The position numbers were made by a program, and so were the translations under genes. A model generated the notes under the pieces. That model did no database searches, was not told the DNA's origin, and saw only the letters and a list, made by a program, of their open reading frames with translations. From Mactra quadrangularis (Eukaryota; Mollusca; Bivalvia; Venerida; Mactridae): a stretch of DNA of 64,000 nucleotides. Location: contig CM046294.1 of NCBI GenBank assembly GCA_025267735.1, positions 5,242,001 to 5,306,000 of the forward strand, given 5' to 3'. This document shows positions 3,101 through 57,589 of this stretch, piece by piece (position 1 is the stretch's first letter; each line of letters opens with the position of its first letter).

Positions 3101-6100
3101 AATACTCGCTGCAATATATGTAACTGCACTTTAACTTGTTATAATTTAGGTTGGTGAGAAACTAGGTAAATATGAAGTAGAGAAGAGACAAGCAGTGGAG
3201 AATGAAGATTATGATAAGGCTAAATTAAAGAAAGTACAAATGGATGAATACAGATTACAGATATATAAAGATTTAAATGTTAAAGAATTATTAGATTCCG
3301 TAAGTTGGTGTCACAGTACTCTTATAGCAATTTTTTTCAATTTTTACCATTTTGAACTTTTGTGGAAGTTGCCATTTTGAAATTTCCAGCTTGAAGCAAA
3401 ATTGTTCCGTAGAACTTGTATACTATAAAGAAATGCTTTCAAAAACTGTTGCAGAATAGGCCTCACTTACATTGTTTTGTCAGTAAATGTCTGATAATAA
3501 TATAACCAGTGATGCTTTTGTTATTAATGATCAATTCTGAAGCAAAGAAGTTGTACCATTGAAAGGAAGATGGGTTGCACCATTAAAGGAAAGGTTCTTT
3601 AGCCTATTTTACCCATGTAAGTAAACAAAAAATTATATTATTGTTTGAATTTATCTTTGTTATAAAACCTTTCTAAATCAATATTTGAAAAGTAGTTACT
3701 TTCATTGATATACACTAGAGTAGTATTGTTTATTTATGATTGTTTTTATTTATTTATTTTACAGGCAAGAGGTCCTCCAAAAATTGATCTAGGTTAGTAA
3801 ATTTTGCAATTGAAACAAAATTATTTTTATATCTAGTCTGTAGTCGTCTGATGTATAATGATTATAGGAGTAATTTTTCCTCTGTCAAGAATGTGTTATT
3901 TCATTTAGAATAAAAATAGACTAAAGCCCCTATATAATGTCTGTCCATGGACTGCAAACAAAATACTTATTTTCTGGAACAAATGTGTTTTATATTATTT
4001 CTTACACCTTATGAAAAAGAATAGTGAAATTTTCACTTAAAATATGTCATTTTTATTTATTGGATTTTAAAATGAAAGTAGGTTGAAACTGGAAGTATGC
4101 AGAAATAGTATCTTTTAAATATTAACCCTCTGATGTGCCATGTCCCTTTTTCTACCTCCCTTCACTTTCCTGAGTTCTAGAATAATGAATAGGTGAGGTA
4201 AATGTTATTTACTACTCAGTATATGTATTACAGAACCAACCAGACAACCAACTCCACCTCGTTTATTAGCACTGCCCAGATCTACACCAAGTCCACCTCC
4301 CAGAACACCATATGATGAAAGAGTAATACCTGCCATGAAAAGGTAAAATATTTAACACTGGCTTATCTAGGCTTTCTATATTATAACAAGTTTTTTGTCA
4401 GTATTTTCAAGGATATGTGAGAACAGATGTTTGTTTTATTTTAGCTTATGATTTTATATGAGCTTAATGTGTCCAATTATGGTATTTCTGTAGATAGCTG
4501 TTTTGTTAAAGTCTATTTACCATCTTAGATATATATTATTATAACATTTGGGCAAAATATTTCATTTTGAATAATTGTCACAGCTTTCGCATAAGAGCAA
4601 GCTTTGTGTAGACGATAGAACATTATATGCTGATTTTGGTACTAATTTATTTAAAAGGATAAAGAGTGTTGCTCATTTAAGCCATTGGCTCAGAAAGAAA
4701 ACTTGATGTTAAATTTCACTAATTTAAATTTGATTGTTAATACACAAATATAAAATTACAAACTTTTATGGTTCTTTCTATTTAATATATTGAATATTTT
4801 TAAACATTTTGATTAGATGAGTGATTGTTTTTACAATGTGTTAGCTTATGTATTTGTGGTAGTATATAATCATTATTGAGTGCCAGTGTTATAGACTAGA
4901 AGCTTTCGGTGGCTTATGAATATTGCAGTTAAGTCATTGAGTGCGCTTTAGACTTCATAATGCAATTATATCATTATATTTAGTTAGAATTAGAACTGGT
5001 TTGCTGTGATATTTTCTGTGTGACTACAACAAGTTATTGTTAAAGTATTGAGCAGTTCTGTGTTGCTATAGGCAAGGGTGTGGAAGCCCAATTATATTCA
5101 TTTGTCAATGGGAAAATGATCTTAAAAATCCATAAGTCTTGGGTGAAAATTTAGCCACAGTTTGATAGAAGTATTGATACATTGATGTCCATGATATGAT
5201 CTGCATATGATAAAGTAAAGTAATAAGTACATTAGTGATTAAGATACACGTCTGTATCATTTACCAGTCATTGCCTTAATTTCTTGCACACTTGCTAAAT
5301 TTAATATGTTTTTAGTAATGGGTAAAATTATTAACTAGCCCAACTAAATGATATATGTAAATGATTTTCGCTAGTTCCAAATTAATTATCACTAGTCCAA
5401 GACTTCTGGCTAGTGGATTAAGGAGACGGCTTACATGTAGCATGGTAGTTTTGATATTTCTACAAATATAATTATTGATATGTTGGGATTGACATTTTCT
5501 CATGTATTTGTGCAAGCAAAATTGGCTGATTCCATACCCCTGCCTGTAGTGCATTCTTATAGGCGTATGTTGTATTCTTGCTGTAAATAAAAGTATATTC
5601 TCTCAAAAGCATATAAAATATTTAGTACATCTTGTATAATGATGTTAGAATCCTATATTGTCTTTAGTGATATAATCATTTCTGCTATAATTATCATAAT
5701 CATCAAGAAAACCCACAAATTGGTTCATGCAAGCAGACGGACATTCAAAATCATATACATGGGAAATTGGGTTGATCAGCATAAAAGTCTTATTATAATA
5801 AAAATAGCTTGCGCCAAACAACCGTGAAATAATAACTATTTCATGGCAAGTAAAACACAATTCTTTTAAAGTGTATGATATATGTCTTTAACTGTTTGAT
5901 TGTCTACTTCCATATTATATCTTTGTTTTAGTTTTTTTCTCCATCATTTTACTATGTTTTGTATTATGTTTTTATTATCAGCCAAAGGAATCAATCACCT
6001 ACAAGTCCCCGAGCAAGGACTCCATATGATGAGCGACCTTTACCAATTCATAAGTGAGTAAAAGTGTACCTTGTAGTCATGGGTAACTTTGCCAGTTTTT

Positions 6101-9100
6101 GATTGGCTGATAGAAAGTCACATGACTATATTAACCTGAGTACTATATTAAATCCTTTTATACTTTATGCATGTGTGCTGCTTTTTGATTGGCTAATCAG
6201 AAATCTTCATGTTTGTTAGTGTGTGATTTTTTATAACCAGATCTAACAGTTATCTTGCATGACTCCGCCCCCAGCATGAGTTCTATATTTTAATTGGCTA
6301 CTGGCTAGTCTGAATCATGTGATATATAATCATTTTAATTAATGTATGTTTGGCATTGGATGTTGTTTACTGTATATTTGTGTATGTAAAAATTGTTCTA
6401 TGTGTAAGCAGTGCTCGACACTAATTTGTAAAGCAGGTTGCCTAGTTCAACAATCAGCTTTAAAAATACTTGCCCGAACCAAAATGTTTACTAGCAGTAG
6501 CAAGTTGCTGTTATCCAAAAAAGGTCATCAGGGACAAAAGAACAACCTTTAATGTTGAGTCCTGTGTAAGATGTGACTATCCTTTATTATTCACAAACAT
6601 ACTGTCATGACCACTCTGAGGCAATCTTCCTATCAAGTCTTTGACTTCTTTTTTTTAACCAACATAAATTTTAACTGTTCTAAAGTGCACTTTAATCTAA
6701 TACTTGTCTAACCATATTATTATGCACTGGAACAATCACATATTAAAACTACAGTTTATGTAGCACATGTTATGTATACCCTGTATGTTTTACTTATTTG
6801 ATTTTGAGTGTTTCTTGTGTGTTGAATATCAATTAGTGTTTTGCTGAGGATTAAGAAGCAAATGCCCAAATGGCCCAATAGATCAAAATTGTTAAATCTT
6901 ATTAAGGGCTAGACATTACAGATGCTTTTGCACCAGGTGCAATTGATATTCTTATTTATTGATACACATGTTTTCAAAATTTCATTCTTACTGAAGCATG
7001 CAGTAGTACCAGCTAACGTTAGAACCAATCAAAATAACTCATACACAATACAGGGTTATGTAGAACCAATCAAAATAACTCATACACAATACAGGGTTAT
7101 GTAGAACCAATCAAAATAACTCATACACAATACAGGGTTATGTAGAACCAATCAAAATAACTCATACACAATACAGGGTTATGTAGAACCAATCAAAATA
7201 ACTCATACACAATACAGGGTTATGTAGAACCAATCAAAATAACTCATACACATTACAGGGTTATGACTTAACTTCTGAGACTTACTCAAATTAAGCTGTG
7301 GAGTATGACTAAACCTGTATGCAACACATGGTGGATAAACCTGATATAACATGCTTGTTTTTGTTTTTTTGCATACACAAATGGGGCAATTGCATGTCTT
7401 AGCAAAACACTAATGTCAATGGACCTTTCCATGACCTTACCTATTAGCATATTTCACAAAGGTTTACAGTTACTTTTTGTCCCACAAACAAGGTGTTAAC
7501 AAAAGAGCATGTGCTTATATTTGTGGGTAAAAGTATTGTTATTCAAATAAAAAGGTCGCTCTTGGAATGGTCCATTATTATGTGTTCTGTGAAAGCATTA
7601 TATACTGTTACATGTTTGAATATCATTTTCTAAAGAGTAATATAACTTAAACCAAGTATAACAAAAAATACAATTAGTCTCTTAGGATCAAAGAATACCT
7701 TCATTATGGAGAATGCTTTTTAAAACTGTCAGTTTACTGGCAAAATTTTGTCTGAAGTTATGTAAGGAAGTTACATTTATAAATAGTAGAAGAGAAACAC
7801 TTACATACATTGTCTGTATAACTTGATTAGATTTTTTCATGATTGTTACTTTCGTTTGTGACCACAAGAAATAAGATTTCAATTTGAGTATAACCTCAAT
7901 CTTGAGATCACGTATTGGTCCATTTGGAAAGCATTATTTAATGTCATGGATTTGTTTTTGAGGTTTTTTGGTGCTTGATAAAAAATTGGTCTGTTAGTTG
8001 TTTTTGAACATGTTTTTTATGTATTTGACTAAAATGTAACCTGTGTATATTTGTGTTTTATTAGTGATCATGTCTAATATTTTACATATGTTAACAACTG
8101 TTACTGTTTTATTGTTAGTTATATAATGTTCATGTTATGTTTAACTATTTAGAATATTTTGTAATACATGTATGTTGGTTGTGGTGATGTCTTTTGCTAA
8201 CTTTATGTTAAATTCACCTCGTCTCACCATTTTGATATCATTGTTGTATTCTGTATTTTTTGTATTCACTGTGTTAATGTCCTACCCAGGATTCAGCACT
8301 AACAGTGTCTCGGGATTCTGAGGATCCCAAAAACTTGGGAGGAATCTTAGGGATTCAGTTAGGATCCCTTTTAAATTGCCCTGTTCTTACATGAATTTGC
8401 ATTCCCATGATTTGTCGTTTATTGCAATTTGTTACTGAAAATTTGTATCCAAAATATTTGTTGTTTTTATTGGAGGAGTCCCTAACTCTAAGAAGGTATT
8501 GTGCGTAAATATTGACCCTGATCTGACTTTTCACATTTGCACCTAATAATTATCTACACATATCCCGACGAAAATCAATACCACACCTATTTTACACTTT
8601 GGCACGTACGCTTTACTATATTTAAAAAATTAATCCCTGTGTAATAATTACATTCGAGCTTTGACGATATGTTCTGATCAATATCGAGCATTAATACTTC
8701 ATTCGTATTCAATGTAATGAATATTCTTGCATAAAGGTCAGGTCAAGGTCAAACTTTACGCACAATATCTCTGAATAATTGACCAAGGATTAATTCAGGA
8801 TCCCAAGTAAAAACTTTAAGTGTTGATCCCTGGTCTTACTTCAATGTTAATGAACATGTGTGTTTTAGTGCGTAATTGTGGTAAATGAAATAGGAACTAT
8901 TATTTCTGAATTACTTAGAACTCATTATATTTTGAGCCATTAAATGTGGTTTACAAACAAGTGGTTGGTCTTATTATTGAATTGGTTTTTAAGCTAGGTT
9001 TTTATGGAGTAAAGCTTTTATATATAATATATTATATACAAATATTATTTGTACATGTATTATGTTGTATGAATGTATGTTTTATATGTTTCATTGTGAG

Positions 9101-12100
9101 ATATTTTCTGGAATATTTGTGGCTACAACTTATGCATTCCCTTTGCATGTGTAATTTTACATTAGTACCGTTCATATAGTCACAAGATATGATTTGCATG
9201 TTTGATTTTGATTATAATTACAATGAAAGATTATCATAGATTTTAGAAATTATTTTACTTCATTAGAATATGCTTGTTTCTATAGACAATGATTATATGT
9301 TTTACTGATTTATCAATGTAGATTATAGAAGTATAAAATCACAGATTGATTCTATTCTTTTCACATTAATTTCTTTGTATAGATCTATATGTACTCATCT
9401 ACAGGGATGATAGAGTTCTAGAACAATCCAGAATTTCCTGATGGTCACTTTTGAAATTTAAAGATTCATGTGTCACTAGGGTGAGGGGGTACCTTTTTAA
9501 AGTGAGATTAGAAGGTCCAAGGGATACATTTAAAGATTGAAGGTCTAGGGGCCAAGTTAAAAGATGTAGACATTCTGGGGTGATTTTGAGGATAAATCAA
9601 AATTTGTACATGTCTTTACAGAATATGGGGTGATTTAGGGTTATTGGTACAGTAAGCAACTGCTTAACTTTTACAAAAAATCATGGTTAAGTGCAAAACA
9701 GTTGTAACTCAATATAAGAAAAGAGTGAGTTACGTCTGTCTTGGACTAAACTCGCGAAATGCATTGAAATGGGAATGATTTGAAATTGAAAAGTAAGAAA
9801 TGTATGGGGATATAGAATCAGCATCCAGTCAAATCTGAATTATTCCAAATGATATTTAAATCATTAGCAGCTGGCCTCATGTAGTGTTTTGATCTGGAAC
9901 CATGCCAGCTGCCTATGACTAAAATTGTTTTCAAATTGAGGAAAGGGTTCATAAAAATGTTGTTAAGTAAGTGATTAGTCTGGTTTGACCCTTTCTTAAT
10001 CTGTTATGTATTCTGGATTGGAAGTTTGGAACTGTTATCATCCTTGAATATATGTTTGATTCATGTATCATATCTATTCACAAGCAGTAAGGAAGCACCT
10101 GCTGACAATAATCTCAACTTATCTCCAAAAACTCCGTACGATGAACGACCCTTACCTGTAGCCAGAACAAAGTAAGTCGATACGCACTATTTGATATTTA
10201 TTCTGCAACATTGTTTCATGTTGTTTTTTACTGCAAGGTGTATTTTTTTATTCTAACAAAATTTGTTAATGCACCACTTATGAATAAAGTAACATAGTCC
10301 TAATTTTTAACGCAAGTTGTATTTTTTTATTCTAACAAAATTTGTTAATGCACTACTTTGAATTAAGAAGTACAGTCCTTTGCACTAAGTATTTGCTGTA
10401 ATATGGTAACATTATAATGCAAATTTTAAGTAAAATTAATCTGGCCTGAGTAAATTTTAACCTCCCATAGTTAATAACAATCAAAAAAATTTCATAACAT
10501 CTGAATTCATGTATAAAAATTGTGTATTTTGCTCACTTGTTCCTTTCTTAAGCAAGTGTGTGGTTTGCACCCTAGAACCTGGTTTTAACACCCAGTGGGA
10601 ATTATTTTGCCAATGTCTGGTCCAAGGTGAAAATCACTACTTTTATTCTATAATCCAGTAAAAATTCATGGGCCGAACAGAAATTTGAACCAACAAAATT
10701 GTAAGTGGACTCTCTACCAAGTCGCTATAATAGCTAGCTTGATGACAAGGGAGTATAAGTCCTGTTACACTTATAAAGTTATTGATGTGTTTTTTACCCT
10801 GTCTAACTGTGATACAACACTCTCTATATTTTCAGAAACTATACAAATATACCATTGTCCTAAAGTACTAGTATTAGGGTTTCAAAATCGGAAAAAAAAT
10901 CATAATCGATCATCGGAAATAATCCGACAACCCTTTTCGATCAATCATCGATTATATAATCATCGATTGTATAATCGAAACATTTACTCAGGGTTTTCAT
11001 TCAGGATTTCCGGAAATATATGACAATACATTGCATTGGTTTAAGTGATTTGTTTCATATAATAGAGTCTTAAATCGTGCATAATCAACCTAATGTAATA
11101 AGTAGTTTGGTGGCTGTTTATGTTTTATGATAAAATCAATTTTCTGACATTTACCGTACCCATACAGTATTGAAAGGGGGCTATACATTGTCCAATAATG
11201 GTGAATTTCATGTTGCCGACCAAAATTATCAACACGGATCTCAATGATTTACTATAACAAAGTAGTAGTAAAAAAAGTTCACATCAAGGTTTAATTGAGA
11301 AGAGTTTTATTCCCATGAAATGTTTTTTTTTTCTTTAGAAATGCTAATTAATTTAAACTAGAATGTCTCATTGTCAATAAAATAAATGACCTACATAAGT
11401 GATAATCGATTATTAAATTTCACTATTGATTGTCTCCCACTTTTACTGAAACGATCGATTATCGATTATAATCGATCATCGTTTAATCCCTAACTAGTAT
11501 TGTCTGTTTTATAACATTTGAACTTGTCATGTTTGTTATTGAATGATAGCATTTCATGTTCATTTACTTGTATTTAAATATAGTTTATAATTTCACTGCA
11601 TGAATTGATTAAGATGTAAGTTAATTACCTATATCTCAAATGTAGCATGAGATAGGAGTTATTTGAGAACAGAAGTTGGGCCAATATTAATAAAATGTTT
11701 GTTTAAAGTGCTCTGATTATAAAATGGTTATTTTAAAAAGTTAATTATAAAGTATGATTGGCTAAATGGTTAAGTTGATTAAATTGATTTGTATCCTCCT
11801 ACCACTGATTCTAAATCGTGTAGGGCAGTTGTCAGTCACTGGCAGATGCACTAAGTAACTGGTAAACAGCTTAATCTAGAGATATAGCCTTTCCAGGAAT
11901 GGTGAGTAGGTTGACTGACTGCAGTGACCAGGGACCAGGAAATCGCCGGTTTTTCGGTTTTCGGACCGATTTTTTCATTTTGGACCGATTGAGATTTCAA
12001 AATCCTTAAAAAAATCGGTCCGGAAAAACTCGCTAATTTTGACCCCAAACATTAATTTCAATAATTTTCAAGAAAACGTATCGATAAAATATTATAAAAC

Positions 12101-41017: not shown

Positions 41018-43510
41018 TGGTCCGTTTTTCTTAACAAGTCGTCTCGGACATTTGTCCTTGAGATGCTTGTTGTCCAATTTCATGTACTTGATATAATTTT
41101 AACAAGTTAACAAGTCGTCTCAGACACTTTGTCCTTGAGATGTTTGTTGTCCAAGTAAATTCATTACATTGTATTGTTTTTGTAATTATTCAAAAGGATT
41201 TGTTTACATTTTGATTCATCACCAAACTTTTAGTATTCAACGTTTTTATTGATTCTGGGGACGAATCTTTGTTTTCATTTTGATTCGTCCACACACTTTG
41301 TACTAAAACAATTGGTTCTAGGAACAAATTTTTGTTTACATTTTGATTCGTTCCCAAACTTTTCGAACTCGGAAAAAGTTTGTTACGAAATTTCTTTGGG
41401 ACGAACAAATTGTTATTTTTTACATTTTCATTCGTCTTTAAACTTTTTGAACTAAGAAGAAGTTGGTTACGAAAATTCTTGAAACGAACAATTGTTTACA
41501 TTTCCAATAGTCCCTAAACTTTTCGAACTTGGAAAGTTGGTTACGGAAATTCTTTGGCACGAATCTTTGTTTACATTTTCATTCGTTCCCAAACTTTTCG
41601 TAACTTCATTCTGGTAAGGAAAATTAAGAGGACGATTTTTTGTTTACATTTATCCGTCCCTATTATTTTCTACTCGGAAAAAATTGGTTTCGAAAATTTT
41701 CGAGATGAAGCTTTGTTTACATTTTCATACGTCCCCAAACTTTTCTAATTCGGGAAAATTTAGTTACGAAAATTCTTTTGGACGAATTTGTGTATACATT
41801 TTCATTTGTCCCAAAACTTTTCGAACTCAAAAGAAGTTGGTTACGAAAATTCTTCGGACAAACAATTGTTTACATTTCCAATCGTCCCTAAACTATTCAA
41901 ACTCAGAAAAGGTGGATACGAAAATTCTTGGGGACAAATTTTTGTTAACGAAAATTTTTTGGCACTAATCAATTTACATCTGTTCGTCCCAATTTTTTTT
42001 CAACTCAGGAAAAGTTGGTTACGAAAATTCTTGGGACGTATCTTTGTTTACAATTTCAACCGTCCCCAAACTTTTCGAACTCGGAAAGTTTGTAGCGAAA
42101 ATTCTTTGGTACAAATCTGTTCACATTTTCATTCGTCACCAAACTGTTTGTATCCAACTTTATTTTAGTTACGAAAGTTAAGAGGACGAAACTTTTTTAA
42201 ATTAATTCGTCTTTTTATTTTTTTCAGCTCAGGAAAAGTTGGTTACGAAAATTCTTGGGACAAATAATTGTTTACATGTTCATTCGTCCCCAAATTATTC
42301 GAACTCTGAAAGTTGGTTCTGTGTTTCCATTTTGATTCGTCCCTATAGTTTTCGTATTCAACTTTATTATTGTTGTGAAAATTAAAAGGATGAATCATTC
42401 TTCATATTGTTATTCGTCCTAAAACTTTTCGTATCCAACATTATTACTGTTACGAAAATTCCAAAGACGAATCTTTGTTTCATTTTTTATTCGTCCCCAA
42501 ACTTTTCAAAATCAAAGAAGCTGGTTCAAATTTCTTGGGACAAATAATTGTTTACATTTCATTAGTCCCCAAACTTTTCGAACTCGGAAAGATGGTTACG
42601 AAAATTCTTTGGCACGAATATTTGTTTACATTTTCATTCATCTTTAAACTTTTCGTATCCAACTTCATTTTGGAAACGAAAATTAAGAGGACGAATCTTT
42701 GTTTACATTTATCTTCCCCATTTTTTTCATTTCAGAATAAAATGTTGGATTCGAAAATTCTTGGGTAGAATCTTAGTTTAGTTCGTTTTTCTTAACAAGT
42801 CGTCTCGGACATTTGTCCTCGAGATGCGTGTTGTCCAATTTCATGTACTTGATATAATTTTAACAAGTTAACAAGTCGTCTCAGACACTTTGTCCTTGAG
42901 ATGTTTGTTGTCCAAGTAAATTCATTAGATTGTGTTGTTTTTGTTATTATTCAAAAGAATTTTTTTTGCATTTTGATTCATCAACGAACTTTTCGTATTC
43001 AACTTTATTATTGATTCTGGGGACGAATCTTTGTTTACATTTTTTTATTCTTCCCTAATCTTTTCGAAATCGGAAGAAGTTGGTTACGAAAAATCTTGTG
43101 ACGAACAATTGTTTACATTTTGATTCATCACCAATTTTTCGAATCTAACTTAATTACTGTAACAAAATTCTGAAGACGAATATTTGTTTCATTTTATATT
43201 CGTCCCCATACTCCTCATACTCGGAAAAGGTTGGTTACAAAAATTCTGGGGACAAATCCTTATTTTTATTTGTCTCAAAACTTTTCAAAACCAGGAGTTG
43301 GTTACGAAAATTATTGGGATAAATAATTGTTTATATTTCCATTCGTCCCCAAACTTTTCGTATCCAACTTCTATTTGGTTACGAAAATTAAGAGAACGAA
43401 TCTTTGTTTACATTTTGAAACGTCCCAAAACTTTTAGAACTCGAAAAAAAGTTGGTTACAAAAATCTTGGGAACGAATCTTTGTTTATATTTTCATTTGT
43501 CCCCAAGGTT
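41018..43510 (+). repeat. Degenerate minisatellite, units about 60-82 bp
   Basis: The unit runs roughly GACGAATCTTTGTTTACATT, TTCATTCGTCCCCAAACTTT, TCGAACTCGGAAAAGTTGG, TTACGAAAATTCTTGG. Some 28 to 30 units vary in length and sequence. A distinct block (ACAAGTCGTCTCGGACATTT...) occurs at 41032-41160 and again at 42788-42925, so there is also a 1.76 kb higher-order duplication. Overlapping frames up to about 126 aa rich in Phe, Lys and Asn are by-products. Confidence 0.92.
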
Positions 43511-44728: not shown

Positions 44729-46213
44729 TTACTTTTTCCTAGGAAATGCTTTAAATCTCCAACCACACACTGTCCAATTAGTATCTTTCATATTTTCTCC
44801 ATAGCGACGATGTAAACTAAAATATGCAAATCTGTAATCTTTTAAGGAAAGAACTTCACTTTCTGATACAGAATAGAAAACCTGAGCTGTAACTTTAAGA
44901 TCCCTGAAATAAAAAATCAGTTACATACTTGAGTAGTTATAGTACTAATACCTTATCAACTCTCAGTGAGGGTGGTTAATTAAAACACATGGGTAGGCCC
45001 TACGTACATAACTAGACTACACCTTCTATTAGATACAAGTTGTTAGAGTCAGGAAAGTAGAAAAAGGAAAGATTTTCCCTGTGTTTTTATGTCTTTATAT
45101 ATGACTATCAGTTCACAACCATTTATTATCAAAGTGATTGTAGAAACAGGTTAATCTAACAGCAAGCACTTGAGTAATTTTTTGGTTTGGCGTAATAATG
45201 TGGTTGTCCGTAAAATTGACATCCACTAATATTTTAGACTTTTTTTTCTCTGGATCATATTGGGCAATGGCAAGGCAATGTGAATAAGACAACAATAGTT
45301 TGCCGTACACATCCAGGTTGCTTATTATCAATATCAGAAATTGCACTTGTAATGAAAATTTGGTAAGTCACAGCAGTAAATATATTTGTCTTTGAATATT
45401 AACGAAAACTAACATGAATTTTAATAATCGAAAGTTGAAAATATCCATATCTGGCAAGGCTTAACTGTATAATCCAAGACTCTGAGGCTAGGATAACAGT
45501 TAATCATAGCCATTGCCTTTTATGTATACTCCCGAGCCCAAATACATTGCTGTCATTAAATTCTCTGTAAATGCGGCGACAACTTTACATCTTTAAGTTC
45601 ACTCGAACAGTAATCGGACAAGCGCTGCAAGTTTTTAAAACTTAATTCCTTACTTTTCTTTGGTAAAAGTGTTAAGTTGCCAGTCTATATCCGTCATCAT
45701 AATGTGCTTCAATTTTGTAACCACCTCATAGTCCTTGTCTCCTTCTCTTTCAACTAATGTTTCATAGAGTTCAGGTGTAACAACATTTTCTAAGGCTTTG
45801 TAATTTTTATCAGCTAAACAGTCAGTCACATATATAAATGCCATCTTGATTCCCTCGGCAAATGATGGACCCAAGTGCCATTTAATGTCTTTATCAAAAA
45901 ATAAAATGTAATACGACAGTTTGATACTAAAGAAAAGAGTTGTAAAGTATGGACAATTATCTTTTATAACAGATCTAGGTTTGCTAGGTTCCTCTGAATC
46001 ATTGTCGTCTGGTCTCCTAATTGCATTTGATGTTCCAAAATTTCTCACAATCAGCTGGTGGGTGGGGTAAAAGCTTTGGTTTGCTACTTTCGTAATCCCA
46101 CATATCTTGTCATCACATTTTGTCCATACGGACGGCTTCAAAACAGACGAACTTTGTAAAGAACGACTTGCAATGTTCACTGAACTGATAGATCTGAATC
46201 TACAGATATTCAT
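44729..46213 (-). CDS. MAIP1: MAIP1-like mitochondrial m-AAA protease-interacting protein
   Basis: Exons in transcript order: 46213-45654, 45320-45240, 44903-44729, giving 271 aa (human about 291). The N-terminus (MNICRFRSISSVNIASRSLQ) is Arg/Ser-rich and lacks acids, as in a mitochondrial presequence. The core (KLSYYILFFDKDI, FAEGIKMAFIYVTDCL, NVVTPELYETLVE) parallels human MAIP1 (KAFLIWAYFDKEF, FSEGAKQAFAHVSKLL). Exon 2 ends YDPEKKK, paralleling YYDEKGRK. Exon 3 ends with DTNWTVCGWRF, paralleling PDWTIARIE. MAIP1 is a matrix Tim44-like protein that binds the AFG3L2 m-AAA protease and protects EMRE. Exon 1 donor is AA|GTAAGG. The exon 2 borders are inferred from phase and alignment; its donor (AA|GTCT) is non-consensus. 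Mitochondrial mL45, also Tim44-like, is the main alternative and fits worse. Confidence 0.82.
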
Positions 46214-46351: not shown

Positions 46352-49300
46352 ATGGTATTTCTGACATTAGTAAGGCATGCATCAAAGTATGCCTTTCGAG
46401 GAGTGCAAAAGAAATATGTTGAAACAGCTGAGCCATCCAGATTAATGAAGAGACACCAGATGAAAAGAGTTGGAGCGGTAATGTCACATATTTTCGCGAC
46501 CTACATGTCAAAGCTATTGTCACCTTGGCATTTTCTTCTTATATTCTTGTTTAATTACATATAGAAATGTCAAGTTCTCATATGTTTTGATGTTTTAAAC
46601 AATAGCTGGAGCAAATTAGGACTAAATGGCGTTCAATCTGTTATGCAGTTGTCATTTCAATAGTCTACATAAGTTGTCATAAGCCTTAGGCCCGTCAGGT
46701 CTCGACCTGTAGGCTGTAGCATGTTGGTAGCTCAGCAGGATTTCCATTAGTGTCCTGAATGGGTATGGGTTTGAATGGTATGGGTATCACTTTCATGAAA
46801 CCTGGCATCATTGTAAATAAATGTTAATAACATATATGGAGAAGTTTCCGGCCTTGTGGATGGGTGAGTACTGGTTATAGACAAGGGTTCAGGAAAACTA
46901 GGTTGGGCGTTCTGGCCAATCTGGGCCTTTATGTAGCAGATGTATAGTACGGCACTTGTACTCCCTTGCCTTCAAGGTAGCTTTTAAGGCGATGTGGTAG
47001 CGTGTCCGCTTACGACTCTGGAGGTTGTTGGTTCAAATCTACATTCGGACCATGTTTTTTTTATCTTCAAACTAAGTTACAGAATGTCAAGCTCCTGTTA
47101 TGTATCTTAGTAATCCAGGCTGGCTAGCTCAGTTGATAGCGAGGGGTTGTAGGTTCGATTTCTGGGTTGGGCATACTTTCGTGGAGCTTGGTCATGAATT
47201 TATTTCTATGGCCATTCTCCCTCCTACGACTGATTCTAAATCATGTAGGGCAGTTGTCAGTCACTGAAAGAAGTATGTGCCTAGTAGTTGGTTAACAGTT
47301 AAAGAGACTTTGCCTTTCCAGGAACAGTGAGTAGGTCAACTGAATGCTGTTATATTACCTATACAATGTGTTGCTACTGCTTAAAACCCAACAAAACATA
47401 CAAGCAAACAAACTATGTATCATTGTAGTCAAGCATGTCTTCAAAATATCATTATTATAGTAAGTATGGGTCTTTTTATACATTTGTACATTGTTTTGTT
47501 TTTTAATTTCAGAAATATTATGGTCGGTTAAGAAATGTTTATATAATTGGAGTAAAGGTAATGCAGAAAGCATTACAATATTCAACTAGAGATACATGGT
47601 CGGTTAAGAAATGTTTATATAATTGGAGTAAAGGTAATGCAGAAAGCATTACAATATTCAACTAGAGATACTACCAGAAAAGCTGAAACTTTAGATAAGG
47701 TTGGTTATACAAAATTATGTCTCCCTGTTTAATTATATATGTGCTGATGACTGATAAGGGGAATTAGAACTGTTTTCTGATCTTCACTAAACAAGGTCAA
47801 ACAAGGTAAATTTATTGGTAGAGCTACGGTCTTTGAATTTTTTAACCAGGGCTTATCATTAAGTGTTGTCTAATTGCCTGTGATGACTTAACTAAGTGTT
47901 CGGTCAACATGCTTTTATCTAAAGTTTTTAATCCCACATCCTGAATATAATTATAACCCTCAGATTATACTTTAAGTACCATTTGGTTTTTGCAAGTTAA
48001 ACTTTTTGTGGGTTGTTTTACCTGGTGAAATCAATTTGAGCTGCAGGCTAGTGGGTTAAAGTGATGACTGGATAGTTGATAAAAGCCCAGCTTCTGATCA
48101 TGGGTTTTTTCTGTGAGAAAATAGACAATTGTTAACAGAGTATAGAATTCCAATGTTGGTGCTTCAAAGAATGGTGTTCTAATGAATTTTCTGTCTCAAC
48201 ATGTCACTTGACTCCTTGAAAAGAGGCTAAAATCTATTTCTACCTATCACTACTATATCTATGCTTTCCTATAAGAAATATTGTGTGTGTATATTTCAGC
48301 TGTATTCAACTAGAATAGAAGCAGCGTGTTTAGAACATGGTATGGATCAAAAATATTTTCTCACATCTCTGGCTGAGGTAATCTTATTTTTCTTGAGGGG
48401 GGATTAACACCATACTGTGACCATATCAAAACATTGTATAGGTCATATTACGGTGGTCATTCAACCTACTGTTCCTGAAAAGGCTAAACTTCTGGGTTTA
48501 GCTGTTAACAATTTTATAGGTACATTCTTATATCAGTGACTGATTACTGCCTTGCTTGGTTTAGTAGTCTTGAGTGCTAGTTACTGAGCTAGCTAGGCTG
48601 TGCTTGCCTGAGAAACTTAAGTTTTCATTTTAGCATCTTTAAATTTCTGCTAGGGCATCCTAAGTTTCCCCCAAAAAATGTGGGTAGCTTAAATGGCTGT
48701 TTTTGACAAGCATTCTTGTAATAGTCTTAAATAAATGGATTATAATATTATAACTTCTTTAAAAACATATTTTATCAAATGTTCAATTGCAAATTTTACT
48801 TTTCAGTTTGATATAAATCTAAACAGAGAAAGTTTAGCAAATTTGGCCATTTATGAACCAAGAACATTTCAGGTAAGTTTACTCATACATAACCAGTCAA
48901 ATGTAGGGATTTATACAGGCATGAAAAATACAGTAAAAGTTCATTCTCTCGAACACCACCAGCTCGAATTAATTGCCTGAGTCGAACACATTGTCTGGCA
49001 CCGATCAATTACCCTTCTATATCTTTATAAAATAACCTCCTCTGAGTCGAACCGGACAGGGTCGAACTCTCGAACCAATATCACGGTCCCGTGGTTTACA
49101 AATACACTATAATACTATTGTCTCTCTCGATCAATAGATTTTCACACATCAGCGACAAAGGTCTGATCGTAATTATTGTTTGTGACGCGTGATAATAACA
49201 CGGCGTGAAAATTGCTCAACCTTAAATTTGTTGATTGATTTTATTTCATTGTCGCACAAAAATACTTAACAATAGAATTGTTTGTAGATTGCACATTGTT

Positions 49301-52300
49301 GATGGACACAAGTTATTAAGTGTCATGGTATGATTAAAAATCAACAATAAATCGAGTAACTAAGGCATCTCTAAAACAAATGAATTAGCGTATATACAGC
49401 TTGTATGTATGTCTTAATTGATACAATTGCTAACAAAATGTATAGAGGATATTCGTCAACTTTGGTGTAAGATCGATTTTTATTTCACCGAGTGAGCTCA
49501 GAAAACATATTTTCATGAGTGGCATAGCCATGAGTGAAAATGTAAATTTATGAGTTCACGAGTTGAAACAAAAATCATCTTACACCAAAGTTGACGAATA
49601 TTCTGTTTCTTTCATGCTTAGTTTTGCGTTTTATTTGATGTATTTTACACAAATTGTAACGTGACGTCATTTCTACTCCAAGATGACGTAATTTATCATG
49701 TAATATGACGTCATGAACGATGGAAATAGAAAGTTATATTTTCACTGCGATGAAAATATAAAATTTATATTTTCATCATTTATTTTCATCGAATAACGTG
49801 ACGTTTCACCGTACAGCACGAAAGAATAATTATTTTAGTATACAATCAGTGGAAATTTACGATCGGTATCAATTCAAAATGTAAGACAAGTATATACATA
49901 AAGATTCAACGATTGAACAACTTAGTCTAGGACCCGGTTACGTCCTCATTGTGCTATAATGCTATTACATTAAGAATATTTGAGTTAGTTTTTATTATTT
50001 TATTTCACAAGAACATAACGAACAAAAAATAAGTTATAAGCAAATTAATTTGCAGTTTGTACCGATTACTTTTACATGACACTTGAACGAACCGTGTATT
50101 CGGGTTTTATATTAAACCAAGGAAGATAACAAATAAAAACAATTAAAAAAACAAAGGGAAGTAACAAAGTCGAACTCGGACGAATGTCGGCCAGGTCGAA
50201 CACCTGCCTGGCTCGAATTTTTTTCCACGTCCCTTCAAGTTCGAGCCAGCGAACTTTTACTGTACCTTAAACAAGCAAAGTTGTGTCATGAAAAGTTCTC
50301 GCGAATCTAACTAAAAATAAATTTATGTCTAACCAGGGCTCAAATTTAACAAAAAATTAGACTAGCAAATTCTTGCAATCTGATTATATTTTAACTCACA
50401 AAATGAAAAAAAAAACATTTTTTTCTTAAAATTGTGAAAGCGTTCCTAGTAACTATTCATATATGCAATATAAAAACTACATAGTACTATATTTAACTAT
50501 AGATAGAACAAGTGCATTTTTGTGGGATAGACTAAGAATATTGAACATGTTTACTGTGAAACTTTAATTAATACTATTGGTCTATCTGGCCGTTTCAATG
50601 CAGATTTGAGCCTCATTAGTTTAAACAGAAATGACTTTGCTTTGATTTCAACTGGTTAAAATTTGTGAGTTAAAATAAAAGTTACTTGCATTTTTCAAAA
50701 TCCACTCACATTTTGTGAGTGTAACATAATAGAACATTAGTCCATATAGTTTCTACCAAGTTTATTTGTTCTACTAAACATATATGTTACAGCACCCAAC
50801 ACCCAGCCAGGTATTCCCACTCAGTGCTACTCACAGCTGAGTCTCTAGGAACAACCTTCTTCTCTGGCTAGTAAACTTAAACTCTCCAACTATCCAACTT
50901 GATAGTTGTAATATTGGCCCGTCTCAACTTGACCACTGATAATTGATAAGGGTGGACCGTGTTGTTTGGTTAGTGATATAGTATTATATCACACCACTCA
51001 TTTTCTTCTACATTTTTTTTTTAATTTCCTGGCTAAGTGTTGTGGCACTTAAAACATTACAAAACCAATACATGATATCAAATACATAATTACAAAATAC
51101 GTTATATCTAAAACATTAATCTTTTGAACTATTGATAATAAATACTTCAAATTGCAATTTTGATAGTTAATTTGGTTATGTACAGTATTAAAGTGTCAGT
51201 TATTCTTTGAATAAAACAATCATTAAACTATATTAAACTATATATACTGTAAATGTCTGTACACATATTTTATTAAGTCCAATTACTAATTTTTGCTATG
51301 GTTGCACTCCTATATAACGTTTCAAAATTACACATCGTGGTTTGAAACAAAATAATCGTTAAAACATCCAATCCTTATGTTAAACTTAAATGTCTATAAC
51401 TTATTTGAATGTAAACAGTTAAAATTTGGATATAACACACGATTTTTTTTAAACTTGTTTAAAAGTAATGAAGGTGTATTCTTTAACTTGGCTCACGACG
51501 AATTTCGGTGACTGACAGCGTCCGGAAACCCTTTTTTGTGATAATCTGCAGGTGAAGTCCATCTGACATTTCATCATTGAAAACTGTTTTCTATGACTTA
51601 TGTACATTGTTCACCATAACTCATATGTGCGGTTAGTTCCATTTTACTTAAATTCAATTATTGTTCAGTAGTTCATTTGTGAGGTATGGATGTATTCTAA
51701 TTTGTAAATGTTCAATCTATATTTGAAACAATCACTTGGCAATAAAAGCAGTTCAGCTCAACATTATAGCGACATTTCTTTGTAATTATTCATCAGTTCA
51801 TGTGTCATCATTTAGGCTTTGTTGATTCGTTTTGTCATGCCTCATCTGGACCACTAGAGTATAAACTGTCATTTTCATGGAAAGGGCAGTGGAGTTTGTT
51901 AACACTGTTCATCAAACCCATACATACATTGCATAATCAACTGGCAATCAATTAATTTAAATTATACTTCAACAATGCGCTACATTCTAACATTTTACTA
52001 AACAAAGAAAATATTTACAACAATATAAAATCATTAAACCCAAGTATTAAATAATAATAACAATGCAATCGATAAAAGTTAATAAAATGTGATAAGACTA
52101 TCTAAGTATGTTTGCACTTGCACGACTGCACTAACAAGATCAATAAAATAACTAATAATTCTTATCTACGACCAATGGTCAACAATGAAAACTTTACTAA
52201 AACTGATCGCTAAATGCGCATCAACTTGTTCTTAACAATTGACAAATAAATGTCACAAGACTTAACCGTCTTAATTTGCATATAAGATTAATTCCTATCA

Positions 52301-55300
52301 CTTTACATAGTCATTGTTAAAAGTGAAAATACACCAATGAAAATGAATTGTGTTACAACAGATAAACTCTGTTAGATTTATACTATATATAAATCAATAT
52401 CAATATCATAGAAACATGATATCACGCGAAAACTCGCAAACCTTGGCATGATTGAATAAGACGCAACATGCACGCAACTACAATAATAAAAATTATTGTC
52501 ATTACTTTCATAGATAAACTAATAGCCTCTTTTACTCATGATCAATAATTCTCAGTTTATATCAAACCGCATAAGGTATTTCGAAAGTACGACCTTATAT
52601 AACAATTAGGCATCATTTCTTCTAATGCATGCTTTAAACTTTAATGCTTGAACAAGACCACTCGTCTTTCTAATAGGTCATTGTACAATGTACGTACATT
52701 TTAAAGGTTGTCATCATATGCAACACTATTGAATCCATTGCTTGCATATAAAATTATTGTCTAGTGTTTCACGGTGACAAAAACATATTGCCGTACAGTG
52801 TTAGATTCTTTACTCAGCAGTGTTGCTATCTGCTACCATTACGTAATCAAAAACATTTCCTTCCCTCCAATTACTTATATAGCAACAAAGTAAAACTTTT
52901 CAGTACTTTCGTTTTTGATTCTAACCTGCAATATGTGTGTCCTACCATTACTACACTGCAATATGAATCGCAAACATTAGCATTGATGACAAGTCTAAAA
53001 ATGTAAACCATGAGCCTCATGTATCATCAAAATGTGTAATAAAATTTATCTACGAGACTAACCGTCCTAATAATATAAAACAATAATTTAAATATAAAAA
53101 CACTCATTCAATAAGCGTATTTCTTTATCAAGACTATTCAAAAGTGTTAAAACGGACGTATTACCACAAAGCAATGCTTACATTACATTACATTATCATG
53201 TACTTATTGGTTAACATGAAATTTAACCCAAATACAGTGCGAATAAACAATAGTATTTTGTCACCATTTCATATGGTTTACCTTAAATATTACTACTGAT
53301 ACATATGAATACTGCAATTAAAATACTAATTCGGATTTTTTTTTAGGCAACAATTGTATTTGACAACTTGCATCAGTTGTAGGTACCTGTTCAAACAGTG
53401 TACAAATTGTAGTTTTATGTAAATATTGTAAATGATGATATAGCTAAATGAATGTGACTGTGTTTACATAAACATCTGTCAATTTAATATATTACTTAAA
53501 AATTTGACGTCTTAAATTGTGCAAAAATGCCATAAGAACATCTGCTTCTGAGCTGTTATCATCGTTGGTGTTATGATCCATTAAACCGTTAATCATGGTT
53601 GGACTTGTACTTGTCTTTGGTTGTGCACATATTGGAAATGTCGATAACATTACATTGTTATCATACTGATGTTTCATAACTTTGTTTGGACTTCTCTGTT
53701 TATTGTAGTGTTTATTGTTAATTTGATAATTGACCGTACACCTTTTATCTTTACTATTGAAATGACTGCACAAAGATTTATTGACATCTGTACTGTGTTT
53801 ATTTGATTTATCATTGGTTCTTATGACTTTATTGTTGACATGTGCTGATTTGTTTCTGGTAAACCCTGAACGAACTGTTGGCATCAGTGGTTTATTGTTT
53901 GCACTATATGACCTTTCCTGTCTATTCTTGCGTCCATTGTGTGTGCTCGAAGGTTTACTGTATTGATAACCTTTGTTTACCTTCGATTTCAAAGTGTACG
54001 CATGTTTGTGTTGCTTTCGCATTTTCTTTGTACACGGCAGATTTCTGTTTGACCTTTGCAAATCAATGTCTTGACCATTTGGTGACGTATAGCTTGATTC
54101 ACCTTTGGATATGACAGATATTGACTGCAATGAGTAATCATGGTGTACAATTCTACCCAATGTGCAGCCTCTTTTTAAAACTAGAGTTTGGTTTGAATTG
54201 TTTGCAATACACACAGATATGACGTTTGAATTATTTTGTGCATATTTGTATTTTAGATTGCACTTTGCACCTGTGATAAAAGATGTTTCTATAGAACAAA
54301 TTTCGTACTGATTTTCCGTCAAATTACAACGTTGCTTGACTTTTCCAAAAACTTGCTGAGCGGAAAACGGTTTTATATTGACAGCTTGTTTGAGCCTTAC
54401 AATTGAACTAATAACATTGTCCGATTGCATAGGGACCTGTTCATTTTTTATAATTATACAATTTATGTCAAAAAATATTCGGCAATTATGTTCTTTCAAA
54501 AAATCGTTTCCTAAAATTGCATTCTTTGTTGTGTTTTTGACAATATAAAATGGATACTCAAATTCACTTGACCCTAAAACGAATTTTACATAAGCGACCC
54601 CAACAACTTGAATTATTTTCCCATCAACAGTTTGTAAATTATTATCAGATTTCTGAAGTACGGGTTTTTGCTTTAAGGTATCAAATATTTTATGATTTAA
54701 CAAAGAACAACAACTACCAGAATCAATGAGTGTTCGAACATTACAATTGCCAAAATTTAATAATATTGAATTTGGAGTTAAGTCCCCTGGTAACATCGTT
54801 TAATGATCTTTTAAAATGTAGAACTAAAATTAGTTTAATCTAAAGAATAAAAACGCGATAAAATGCTAAATATATATGTTCGTACGTAAACAATTTCTTT
54901 CATTGATCATAAAATAAAATTTAACATAATTAAATCTGCATTAAAATCTTAATAGTACTATAAAGCACCATCATAAATTAAACTTGCCAGTTTACTTTTG
55001 CAATGATATGTCAGGATCTCAAAACAAGTGGAAACAACTGACCTTTTGATATATTCATCTGGTAAGCACGGTACACCATCATCTAAATACACAGTAAAAG
55101 TTACATAATGTCCTCGGCACGTAATTTCAGATAAAATAGAGTGTTGTACTTGTAAAACAGAAAAATATTCAGTCCACATTACACTCTGCATTTTTCATGG
55201 TACACATAACATTAAAACATGTTTTGTTGTTTTTCTCCAATAAAATACGATCTCTTGGCACGTGATTTTACTAGTATAAGTGTCAGTATTTATCATTATG

Positions 55301-57589
55301 TCCGCTACATCCACAGTGAATCTCTGGTCACTGGCACCACAAAGAGGGTGTAACATAATAGAACATTAGTCCATATAGTTTCTACCAAGTTTATTTGTTC
55401 TACTAAACATATATGTTACAGCACCCAACACCCAGCCAGGTATTCCCACTCAGTGCTACTCACAGCTGAGTCTCTAGGAACAACCTTCTTCTCTGGCTAG
55501 TAAACTTAAACTCTCCAACTATCCAACTTGATAGTTGTAATATTGGCCCGTCTCAACTTGACCACTGATAATTGATAAGGGTGGACCGTGTTGTTTGGTT
55601 AGTGATATAGTATTATATCACAGTGAGTATGCGAGCTTAAATTCGACCCATTGTTTAATATAACATTGATGTTTGTGCGAGTACCAATACTTGTAACATT
55701 TTGAAATCCTATACAGTCAATTCGCATTATCTCGACTACGCTTGAGTCGACTTTTCGTTGTCTCGATAGAAAATCTAAAGTCCCGATTTTTTCCCTTCTA
55801 TATCTATATGAAAAATGCATGTTTATCTCGATCTTTTTCTCTCGACTTTTTCCATATCTCGATCATAAATTACGGACCAAAACGTTTGTTTTACTCTATA
55901 ATCCTAATGTTTAACTCGACTAGTCAAAGATGTCATCGGCAATCTGACGAGGTGCGAAAAACAACACGCGCCAATCAATTAGCGATCACTCTGTGAAACT
56001 GATACATAGGGGTCAATTTTAATCAACATGTCATTTAACAATAGTGAACTAACAAAGTGACAGCTTTTTGATTGACAGGTGTCACAATTAAATTAATTGA
56101 GCATCGTGGACTCTATACTTGTTACATACGCTTTTTTTATGAAAAAGTATGTATAAAAATAAAATATTAAAAAAACGAAACATCTTTTATATTCCTATAT
56201 TTATTTAATTTCGTTTTTAGTTGATCGATATGTTTATACTCAATTTTAAAGCATACTCTTAATAACTAAAATTTAATCACTCCACGCGCTTCAGAAAAAT
56301 GCTGGTCGGACATAAAGTTGTTAACAACTTGATTATATCTGTTACTACTCAATTTTACTTAGTGATCTTCTTTGTTTGTCGTTTGCAAGACGCGGCAATG
56401 ATAGATTGCTGAACATCTAAGAAAAGCCGACATAGCGTGAGTTGTATGGCGATCAATGACGTCACAACACGCGTTTACACACCCAGGCTTAAATATTTAA
56501 TATAAAATTGTTGACTGGCTACAAATTGTCAAATAAATATACGCTCGATAAGTTTGCTTCATCGAGATATAGTCTGTGTAAAATTAGAAATCAAAAGTAG
56601 ATTTTCGGAAAATACGCAAATTTTTTTTAACTCGTCGAGACGAAACAGCGTCAGAGTGAACATACAACACAACAACTTGGAGTACATTTGTGATATAAAT
56701 AGTAAAATCCTATTTACAGTTGTAATAAAGCAATTATTTTAAACTACACGCTCTGAACAGGTAAAAAGTGCTACTGAAGACCTCAAACTTACCTCCCTTC
56801 ATAAGTTTTGTTTATCTCGACTATTCGTTATCTCGACTATTTTTCAACAGTCCCAACTAAGTCGAGATAACGAGAATTGACTGTATTACTACCCTTAACA
56901 ACCAGACCAACTTATTTACATGGGTTTACACATTCTATATGAATACTTTATGTGCAGACCCTGGCTAGAATTTATACATAAATTAAGTGTCTAGTAGTGA
57001 TATTTAAATACTTGAATAGCAGTTGGGTCATCAATCCTCAATTAGGCTTTGGACTGGCTTTGACCAGGATTCAACTCTAACAGTGTCCAGGGAATTCGAT
57101 GATCCCAAAAACTAGGGAGGAATCCCTGTGATCTTTAGCTGGGGATTCTGTCAGGCTCCCTAAAAAGTTGTACTTTAGTGACTTTGAGTTTCAACCAATT
57201 GCTTAATAAATTTGTGCCTGCAAATCTGCATCTGAAAGTTTTGTAGTTTATTCGAAGAACCCCTGAAATTAAGGTGGAATCCCTATACAACTGACTAGGG
57301 ATTTCTTAAGGATACCTGATAAACAGTGTCAAACTCTTGCCATAAGTTTTAGACTCACTGTCAGGAGTTGTAATCCTTGTACAAGTACTATTTTAGGAAA
57401 ATTTATTTTGTGACATTTTGATGCTTTATTAATAATAGATAATTTTATTTCTTTCAGACATTGGTAGAGTTTGTTAAGAAGAGATCTCTAGAAATTGGTT
57501 TACAATCTAAAACACTTGGTGCTCCTATGGGCTTAGAGCCACGTGGTATTCTAGAAGAAATAAAGAAAGCTTCTAATTCATCGTCATGA
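46352..57589 (+). CDS. MRPL20: MRPL20, mitochondrial ribosomal protein bL20m
   Basis: Exons: 46352-46477, 47513-47699 (contains a 76-bp duplication), 48300-48377, 48807-48872, 57458-57589. Without the duplicated segment every exon is a multiple of three in phase 0, giving 170 aa (human about 149). The start MVFLTL matches MVFLTA. YYGRLRNVYIIGVKVMQKAL parallels the bL20 helix FRGRKNRCYRLAVRTVIRA. Exons 3-4 encode LYSTRIEAACLEHGMD and NRESLANLAIYEPRTF, close to RITAASQEHG and NRKVLADLAIYEPKTF. bL20 binds 23S-type rRNA early in large-subunit assembly. Read straight through, exon 2 meets TAG at 47663 because of the duplication; splicing out 47558-47633 restores the frame. The last intron is about 8.6 kb of nested mobile elements. 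Confidence 0.9.
46708..46940 (+). repeat. tRNA-derived SINE, family C
   Basis: GTTGGTAGCTCAGCAGGATT and GGTTTGAATGG boxes and the family-C body ATATGGAGAAGTTTCCGGCC. Confidence 0.75.
46955..47060 (+). repeat. tRNA-like SINE, family D
   Basis: GGCGATGTGGTAGCGTGTCC and GGTTCAAATCT boxes. Antisense relatives lie at 10664-10770 and 25480-25585 (CTACCA(A/C)(G/A)TCGCTATAA). Confidence 0.7.
47118..47400 (+). repeat. tRNA-derived SINE, family A
   Basis: GGCTAGCTCAGTTGATAG and GGTTCGATTTC boxes followed by the full family-A body. In MRPL20 intron 1, about 110 bp before exon 2. Confidence 0.8.
47520..47671 (+). repeat. Perfect 76-bp tandem duplication inside MRPL20 exon 2
   Basis: Copies 47520-47595 and 47596-47671 both run from ATGGTCGG to AGAGATAC with no mismatch that I can find. 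Seventy-six is not a multiple of three, so the exon is shifted if both copies are retained. Each copy contains one AGGT (AAAGGTAATG). Confidence 0.95.
47558..47633 (+). other. MRPL20: Candidate 76-nt intron created by the duplication
   Basis: From GTAATG in copy 1 to GTAAAG in copy 2, this segment begins GT and ends AG. The flanking exon sequence is AAAG before and GTAATG after. Removing it leaves one copy, 111 exon nt (37 codons) and a phase-0 intron. The donor is reasonable; the pyrimidine tract before the acceptor is poor. Whether it is spliced is not known. Confidence 0.5.
48931..50262. mobile_element. pogo/Tigger-like non-autonomous element, TA target
   Basis: Terminal inverted repeats begin CAGTAAAAGTTC at both ends and carry several TCGAA subterminal motifs. 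TA dinucleotides flank it (48929-48930, 50263-50264). It is 1332 bp with no transposase ORF. TIR style and TA target fit Tc1/mariner-pogo. A foldback element is nested within it. Confidence 0.8.
49447..49610. mobile_element. Foldback element nested in the pogo-like element
   Basis: Arms of about 40 bp (ATTCGTCAACTTTGGTGTAA on the left, its complement on the right) enclose a second inner palindrome around CATGAGTGGCATAGCCATGAGTG. The architecture resembles the element at 38246. Confidence 0.7.
50720..50993 (-). repeat. 3' LTR (in element orientation)
   Basis: 274 bp, TG...CA ends; apparently identical to the other LTR. The left target duplication GTGAG is at 50715-50719. Confidence 0.92.
53492..54796 (-). 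CDS. Retropepsin-like protein of the LTR element (434 aa)
   Basis: The N-terminal third is an aspartic protease of the Ty3/Gypsy type: TLIDSGSC with catalytic Asp near residue 25, and NAILGNDFL near 93-100. Residues about 193-216 (VCIANNSNQTLVLKRGCTLGRI) resemble the segment that follows protease in Gypsy pol, just before reverse transcriptase. Instead of reverse transcriptase, the protein then has a Lys/Asn/Ser/Arg-rich low-complexity tail with no CCHC zinc knuckle. A TAA one codon upstream of ACG-ATG, in frame, closes the ORF, so this ATG is the likely start. It looks intact. Possible roles are processing of a partner element's polyprotein or a cellular activity; neither is shown here. Confidence 0.85.
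   Translation of the reverse strand: MLPGDLTPNSILLNFGNCNVRTLIDSGSCCSLLNHKIFDTLKQKPVLQKSDNNLQTVDGKIIQVVGVAYVKFVLGSSEFEYPFYIVKNTTKNAILGNDFLKEHNCRIFFDINCIIIKNEQVPMQSDNVISSIVRLKQAVNIKPFSAQQVFGKVKQRCNLTENQYEICSIETSFITGAKCNLKYKYAQNNSNVISVCIANNSNQTLVLKRGCTLGRIVHHDYSLQSISVISKGESSYTSPNGQDIDLQRSNRNLPCTKKMRKQHKHAYTLKSKVNKGYQYSKPSSTHNGRKNRQERSYSANNKPLMPTVRSGFTRNKSAHVNNKVIRTNDKSNKHSTDVNKSLCSHFNSKDKRCTVNYQINNKHYNKQRSPNKVMKHQYDNNVMLSTFPICAQPKTSTSPTMINGLMDHNTNDDNSSEADVLMAFLHNLRRQIFK
54958..55191 (-). CDS. Small ORF in the LTR element leader (77 aa), unrecognised
   Basis: It lies between the PBS-like site and the protease ORF. It contains paired Cys residues but no motif I know. It could be a degenerate gag fragment or chance. 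Confidence 0.3.
   Translation of the reverse strand: MQSVMWTEYFSVLQVQHSILSEITCRGHYVTFTVYLDDGVPCLPDEYIKRSVVSTCFEILTYHCKSKLASLIYDGAL
55349..55622 (-). repeat. 5' LTR (in element orientation)
   Basis: 274 bp, TG...CA ends. GTGAG follows directly at 55623-55627. The PBS-like sequence lies immediately below 55349. Confidence 0.92.
55714..56883. mobile_element. pogo/Tigger-like non-autonomous element, TA target
   Basis: The ends read CAGTCAATTC...TTATCTCGAC on both strands, flanked by TA at 55712-55713 and 56884-56885. It is 1170 bp with no long ORF and subterminal TCTCGACT repeats. It lies about 90 bp from the LTR element. Confidence 0.82.
57066..57340. repeat. Relative of the 8286 repeat
   Basis: Shares CCAGGATTCA and the CTAACAGTGTC block with the 8286 element and has several GGAATCCC/GGGATTC motifs. 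It lies about 120 bp before the last MRPL20 exon. Confidence 0.5.

Follow-up and report, generated by a model that had tools for sequence, protein, structure and literature searches.

That introns can arise by tandem duplication of genomic sequence is accepted (PMC3443670; PMC4974935), and the origin of a vertebrate ATP2A1 intron by tandem duplication around AGGT has been recreated in ATP2A2 (Hellsten et al. 2011, as described in PMC4974935). Intron birth is mostly inferred from old, diverged cases. Here we consider a 64,000-nucleotide stretch of the genome of the clam Mactra quadrangularis (hereafter the window; C2:5242001-5306000 of a 979-Mb, 447-contig assembly), in which exon 2 of MRPL20, the gene for mitochondrial ribosomal protein bL20m, holds two identical adjacent copies of a 76-bp segment with an AGGT in each. 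Of the readings weighed below we tentatively prefer that of a real young duplication which is mostly retained in transcripts that are then decayed, on an allele, null or weak, that its counterpart on the other chromosome shelters, and with some leaky splicing. No earlier report of a duplicated MRPL20 exon was found in the literature searched, most subscription journals being beyond the reach of that search.

The duplicated segment of MRPL20 exon 2

MRPL20 is an essential gene of the mitochondrial ribosome. It occupies 46352..57589 of the forward strand in five coding exons: exon 1 (46352..46477; 42 codons, native donor GCG|GTAATG), exon 2 (47513..47699), exon 3 (48300..48377), exon 4 (48807..48872) and exon 5 (57458..57589, with stop codon TGA). 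As assembled, exon 2 measures 187 nt, the sum of 111 and 76 nt, and with a single copy of the repeated segment it would measure 111 nt; its native sites are the acceptor ATTTCAG|AAATATT and the donor ATAAG|GTTGGT. Apart from the duplication the gene is undamaged, its other four exons and its authentic splice sites being intact, as would be expected for a recent lesion.

The initial annotation placed two perfect adjacent 76-bp copies in this exon and was right to the base: copy 1 lies at 47520..47595 and copy 2 at 47596..47671 of the forward strand, both fall wholly within exon 2, and a perfect repeat of this length is not chance. It also gave one AGGT to each copy, and these are found at 47556 and 47632, with a third, at 47698, spanning the authentic exon-2 donor; AGGT is present in 317 of 1370 (23%) 76-bp windows of the coding exons mapped in this stretch. 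Matching stops at both borders of the repeat, so that microhomology at the copy join is 0 bp, and uninformative. The 0/76 differences between the copies bound their divergence only to <3.9% (95%); a “very recent” age is therefore not forced by their identity.

If the duplication is retained, translation ends, as had been claimed, at a premature TAG (47663..47665, forward strand), giving a 92-aa product. A stop well upstream of the last exon junction as a rule leads to nonsense-mediated decay (NMD), and because this TAG stands 178 nt before that junction, retained transcripts are predicted NMD targets. With 47558-47633 removed, the five exons encode a 170-aa bL20m. The first 127 aa of this one-copy product match Pfam PF00453 (Ribosomal_L20) well above its curated threshold (77.4 bits, cut-off 30.8; 1.1e-21), PF00453 is carried by all five of their database matches, and they also match solved-ribosome chains named bL20 or bL20m. 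The closest protein is Mactra antiquata ACF0H5_019887, with 87% identity over the first 127 aa and 90% over the whole; this protein and four other bL20m hold one copy's worth of residues, a comparison of proteins only, in which intron DNA is invisible.

The exon that carries the duplication is also fast-evolving between the two mactrids: residue differences from M. antiquata number 16/79 in exons 1-2 and 1/89 in that part of exons 3-5 which was compared (Fisher 3e-5). Distance to Ruditapes is about equal for exon 2 (14/37) and exon 5 (14/41).

The restored frame had been offered, together with the exact length, as a mark of an intron. The frame is indeed phase 0 and leaves one copy, but excising one full period of any tandem duplication restores the ancestor, so that exact 76-nt length and intact frame are not independent evidence; we reject them as a tautology, and the case shows that frame restoration by excision is by itself no evidence. 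The one informative question is whether the borders of the duplication function as splice sites.

Splice signals, intron length and RNA structure

Splice sites were scored by weight matrix against 24 native introns, all of this one window: 19 of CEP104 (obtained by protein-guided joining; 2 of 21 were dropped as ambiguous), four of MRPL20 and one of a MAIP1-like gene. Each native was left out of its own model, and for the new sites the full set of 24 was used. The candidate intron at 47558..47633 (forward strand; GTAATG...GTAAAG, 76 nt) unites two very different signals. Its donor, AAG|GTAATG, scores 9.25 bits, more than 17/24 native donors and a level reached by only 0.5% of the GTs in the window, and its intronic hexamer GTAATG is also that of the native donor of MRPL20 intron 1. 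Its acceptor, GGAGTAAAG|G, scores -5.55 bits, below 24/24 native acceptors; written as TTTATATAATTGGAGTAAAG|G it is on par with a random AG, since 49.6% of AGs in the window, and 53% of those in AGGT, score at least as high. Thus the claim that an intron has been born here stands as to its donor and falters at its acceptor, whose pyrimidine tract the initial annotation had already called weak (50% pyrimidine, vs 56-81% in natives). Better AGs lie on either side, one 5 nt upstream (first exon base 47629; -2.5 bits), which would break the frame, and one 9 nt downstream (first exon base 47643; +0.9 bits), which keeps the frame and drops the residues VMQ. The sole branch-like site of the form YTNAY is TTTAT, 16 nt upstream of the candidate acceptor. 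The summed donor and acceptor score, 3.7 bits, is reached by 3.7% of 76-bp coding windows and by 16% of the AGGT-bearing ones. Measured against a Rogers-type intron, the locus has its donor half ready but not its acceptor half.

Within the exon the top-scoring frame-restoring pair is 47557/47643, which reaches 10.2 bits against 3.7 for the 76-nt intron; this is a rival 85-nt intron (47558..47642, forward strand) with the same donor and the acceptor ATGCAG|AAAG, which stays in frame and loses VMQ. On paper there are further in-frame products: splicing of exon 1 to 47571, 47592, 47634 or 47643 gives 176, 169, 155 or 152 aa respectively, and joining the donor after 47557 directly to exon 3 gives 148 aa, with 22 residues lost.

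Length sets the candidate apart from the introns measured in this genome. The shortest of the 24 natives measures 351 nt, and among 30 intron gaps added from CCT genes the minimum is about 260 nt; these gaps were drawn from 66 of 77 matches, with 11 omitted (six on C8, one long-frame on C9, one on C169, two on C18 and one on C17). None of the 54 measured introns is near 76 nt; if they are independent, introns of that size would make up at most 5.4% (95% bound). The CCT gaps include pairs of near-identical gene copies, and hence are not fully so. Long native introns together with strong outer sites would favour the definition of 47513-47699 as one exon.

The candidate donor also lies within a predicted RNA hairpin (47550..47583, forward strand), in which GTAATGC pairs with GCATTAC above a lower stem of five pairs, and whose sequence recurs 76 nt downstream. 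The predicted fold has -11.1 kcal/mol (z -5.0 vs 200 shuffles) and pairs the whole candidate donor. With 60-nt flanks, opening the six donor bases is calculated to cost 8.0 kcal/mol, vs 0.4-6.5 in the 24 natives, and among 300 random GTs only 2.7% reach that degree of closure. In five of the six context lengths (flanks of 20, 30, 40, 60 and 120 nt) the donor is more closed than 24/24 natives. Thus the structural argument against the donor is a real one, but it depends on context length. We also considered hairpin masking of an exonic AGGT donor as a special feature of this locus; that idea is weakened by the finding that 5/21 exons have an internal GT outscoring their authentic donor, which is therefore not rare. 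Among the other four such GTs, only that at 46386 is strongly closed.

Proposed retention with decay, and the competing explanations

The reading that we tentatively prefer runs as follows. A 76-bp tandem duplication, which we infer to be genuine, would have arisen within MRPL20 exon 2 in the clam lineage and put a strong donor 76 nt upstream of a poor acceptor. Most transcripts would be defined as a single 187-nt exon between the authentic sites, would keep both copies, reach the TAG at 47663 and be removed by nonsense-mediated decay, while a minor fraction may be spliced, with the acceptor after 47633 or 47642, to yield some bL20m. The allele would then be null to hypomorphic and heterozygous, with the other chromosome making good its loss, and would represent a failed or only leaky proto-intron. 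As judged from the signals in the DNA, this is the most likely course of splicing, decay and allele state, and it is the poor acceptor, with the long native introns and the strong outer sites of the exon, that makes us think retention with decay the most likely outcome. Sheltered lesions of this kind have precedent in bivalves, with 8-14 recessive deleterious alleles per genome in C. gigas and 15-38 in O. edulis (PMC6058216). Further support comes from the donor's opening energy at 60-nt flanks, the perfect short tandem repeat of the genome sample, the chromosome scale of the assembly and the C6 pair of CCT copies described below, whose ~3% mismatches plus gaps are what unmerged haplotypes in a highly polymorphic animal would show.

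Several observations weigh against this preference. The candidate donor outscores the authentic exon-2 donor; the U content of the candidate acceptor tract (50%) is within the native range of 38-75%; and at 80-nt flanks opening the donor costs only 3.6 kcal/mol, with 11/24 natives as closed. The second haplotype is unseen: a 321-bp sequence over exon 2, used as query against the whole 979-Mb assembly, matched only its own locus, and neither a second haplotype kept in the assembly nor a retrocopy or close paralogue of the exon was found. On population-genetic grounds, a random chromosome should far more often carry a working allele of an essential gene than a null one, which favours splicing; and new introns in Drosophila are described as having weak sites at the start, with NMD as backup (PMC2809761; PMC2891723). 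For the last two reasons we keep a modest share of our belief for an efficiently spliced newborn intron. Under that account, which follows the Rogers (1989) model and which we consider possible but rather unlikely, 47558-47633 is spliced efficiently from a near-neutral allele. Its source copy, being 100% identical, would show it caught near birth and possibly polymorphic, its hairpin would be inherited from the exon, and its acceptor would not yet have been improved by selection; this fuller version we hold to be just as unlikely. The donor, placed above 17/24 natives and in the top 0.5% of GTs, with the hexamer of native intron 1, speaks for such an intron, as do the TTTAT standing 16 nt before the acceptor, the retention stop 178 nt before the last junction, by which NMD can mask errors, and the rarity of a matching donor and acceptor sum (3.7% of coding windows, 16% with AGGT). 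Lehmann et al. 2010 (PMC2891723) likewise found a premature stop in every one of their 18 intron sequences of tandem-duplication origin. The account is opposed by an acceptor below every native one with better AGs on either side, by the hairpin over the donor in 5/6 context lengths and by a size far under any of 54 introns; moreover, its acceptor stands at about the 50th percentile, vs the 75th-98th in Lehmann et al. (PMC2891723), although the reference sets of the two comparisons differ.

Alternatively, the second copy may be an error of assembly, polishing or library preparation, in an animal that is single-copy on both chromosomes, which we regard as doubtful. As the copies are identical, no internal mutation proves that there are two, whereas the copies described in potato (PMC4974935) and in fission yeast (PMC3629103) differ from one another, and the rest of MRPL20 is intact. 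However, the assembly is chromosome-scale, of a class that is presumably built from long reads as a rule, with zero N in the window, and the other mapped exons are open. Perfect tandem repeats with a unit of at least 50 bp and at most three copies occur once in 200 kb sampled from the genome (nine contigs, 20 stretches of 10 kb) and once in the window; since the sample too holds one, perfect short tandem repeats appear to be an ordinary process here. Improbable, in our judgement, is a rescue by imprecise splicing, above all from 47557 to 47643 (85 nt removed, VMQ lost, 167 aa) or from exon 1 to 47592 (169 aa, KYY replaced by IH). The first is the best frame-restoring pair in the exon, TTTAT would stand 25 nt upstream of its acceptor, and imprecision is common among tandem-duplication gains (PMC3443670). 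But that acceptor is weak at 0.9 bits (one of the 24 natives is clearly below it and one about equal) and its tract is purine-rich (31% pyrimidine), and VMQ lies within an ungapped stretch of 6/6 aligned bL20m, so that its loss should hurt; the acceptor at 47592, with -2.5 bits, would compete with the strong native one at 47513. Finally, a second functional MRPL20 elsewhere could free the duplicated copy to decay. We found no support for this and think it very improbable, as the exon-2 query matches only itself, though a diverged paralogue might escape such a query.

Whichever applies, a one-copy allele yields mRNA of the very sequence that splicing would produce, and so reads joining 47557 to 47634 cannot prove splicing in a heterozygote; there, normal mRNA aligned to the assembly shows a 76-nt gap, which an aligner may set at AG|GT or at many points within 47520-47671. 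If a highly polymorphic animal carries such an allele, its copies still identical, the opening step of intron birth could be watched, with the splicing efficiency of a fresh duplication, the decay that hides its errors, and any coexistence of carriers and non-carriers all open to observation. If unspliced, it would be a clean natural example of an AGGT duplication failing, in which the donor half is easy and the acceptor half is not.

Genomic surroundings and relation to described systems

Head to head with MRPL20, on the reverse strand at 44732..46213, lies a two-exon gene that we take to be MAIP1-like; its protein is 70% identical to M. antiquata ACF0H5_019888, whose tag is consecutive with that of the MRPL20 homologue ACF0H5_019887. 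The 3' part of CEP104 occupies the forward strand with exons from about 0.2 to 28.4 kb, and the gene list leaves the stretch from 28.4 to 44.7 kb unannotated. Three CEP104 exons (4233-4340, 5974-6054 and 10086-10172) each hold a repeated TPYDER(V/P)(I/L)P motif, which looks like an old internal exon duplication. MRPL20 intron 4 holds a 435-aa open frame (53495-54799, reverse strand) with a gag-type retroelement aspartyl protease domain, PF13975, barely above its cut-off. Scans for tRNA and, at the gathering threshold, for Rfam families gave no match.

Other repeats were noted. The diverged array at 41322-43506 has a period of about 72-77 bp and was considered as the product of a related process, but its consensus units are unlike the MRPL20 unit and the likeness in period looks coincidental. 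A minisatellite at 7020-7265 consists of six 41-bp units with 99% matches, and a perfect repeat of three 59-bp units lies in one sampled stretch (L029:5171-5346). Among the CCT genes, the copy pair on C6 (L010/L011) is 95-96% identical over 3 kb, with ~3% mismatches plus gaps, and the pair on C13 (L007/L008) shows 89-96% identity in long matches; both fit either unmerged haplotypes or young duplicates. A published mactrid genome is 3.34% heterozygous, and its assembly was made with HiFi reads and polished with short ones (PMC9635629).

Set beside the described systems, the clam locus resembles ATP2A1 in that an AGGT-bearing exonic segment is duplicated in tandem and its excision restores the coding sequence; the acceptor context in the clam is poor, however, and its intron is a candidate. 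The second intron of the potato RdRp gene (Ma, Lan and Niu 2016, PMC4974935) is likewise young, lies in a tandem duplication and belongs to a gene of several exons. But the potato duplication spans a real intron-exon border and inherited a real acceptor, and it carries ten differences between copies and the support of 53 genomic and 106 RNA reads. The tandem-duplication introns of Drosophila (Lehmann et al. 2010, PMC2891723) share the AG|GY proto-splice site and the premature stop on retention, but they are established, with improved sites, and their acceptor proto-sites ranked above most comparable sites. In the fission yeast genes SPOG_01682 and SOCG_00815 (PMC3629103) a proto-splice site similarly lies in exonic tandem repeats, although there the units are of 24 nt, in several non-identical copies, and splicing is EST-supported. 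Recessive deleterious alleles of bivalves (PMC6058216) offer a likeness of another kind, that of a frame-breaking lesion in a presumed essential gene within a high-load group.
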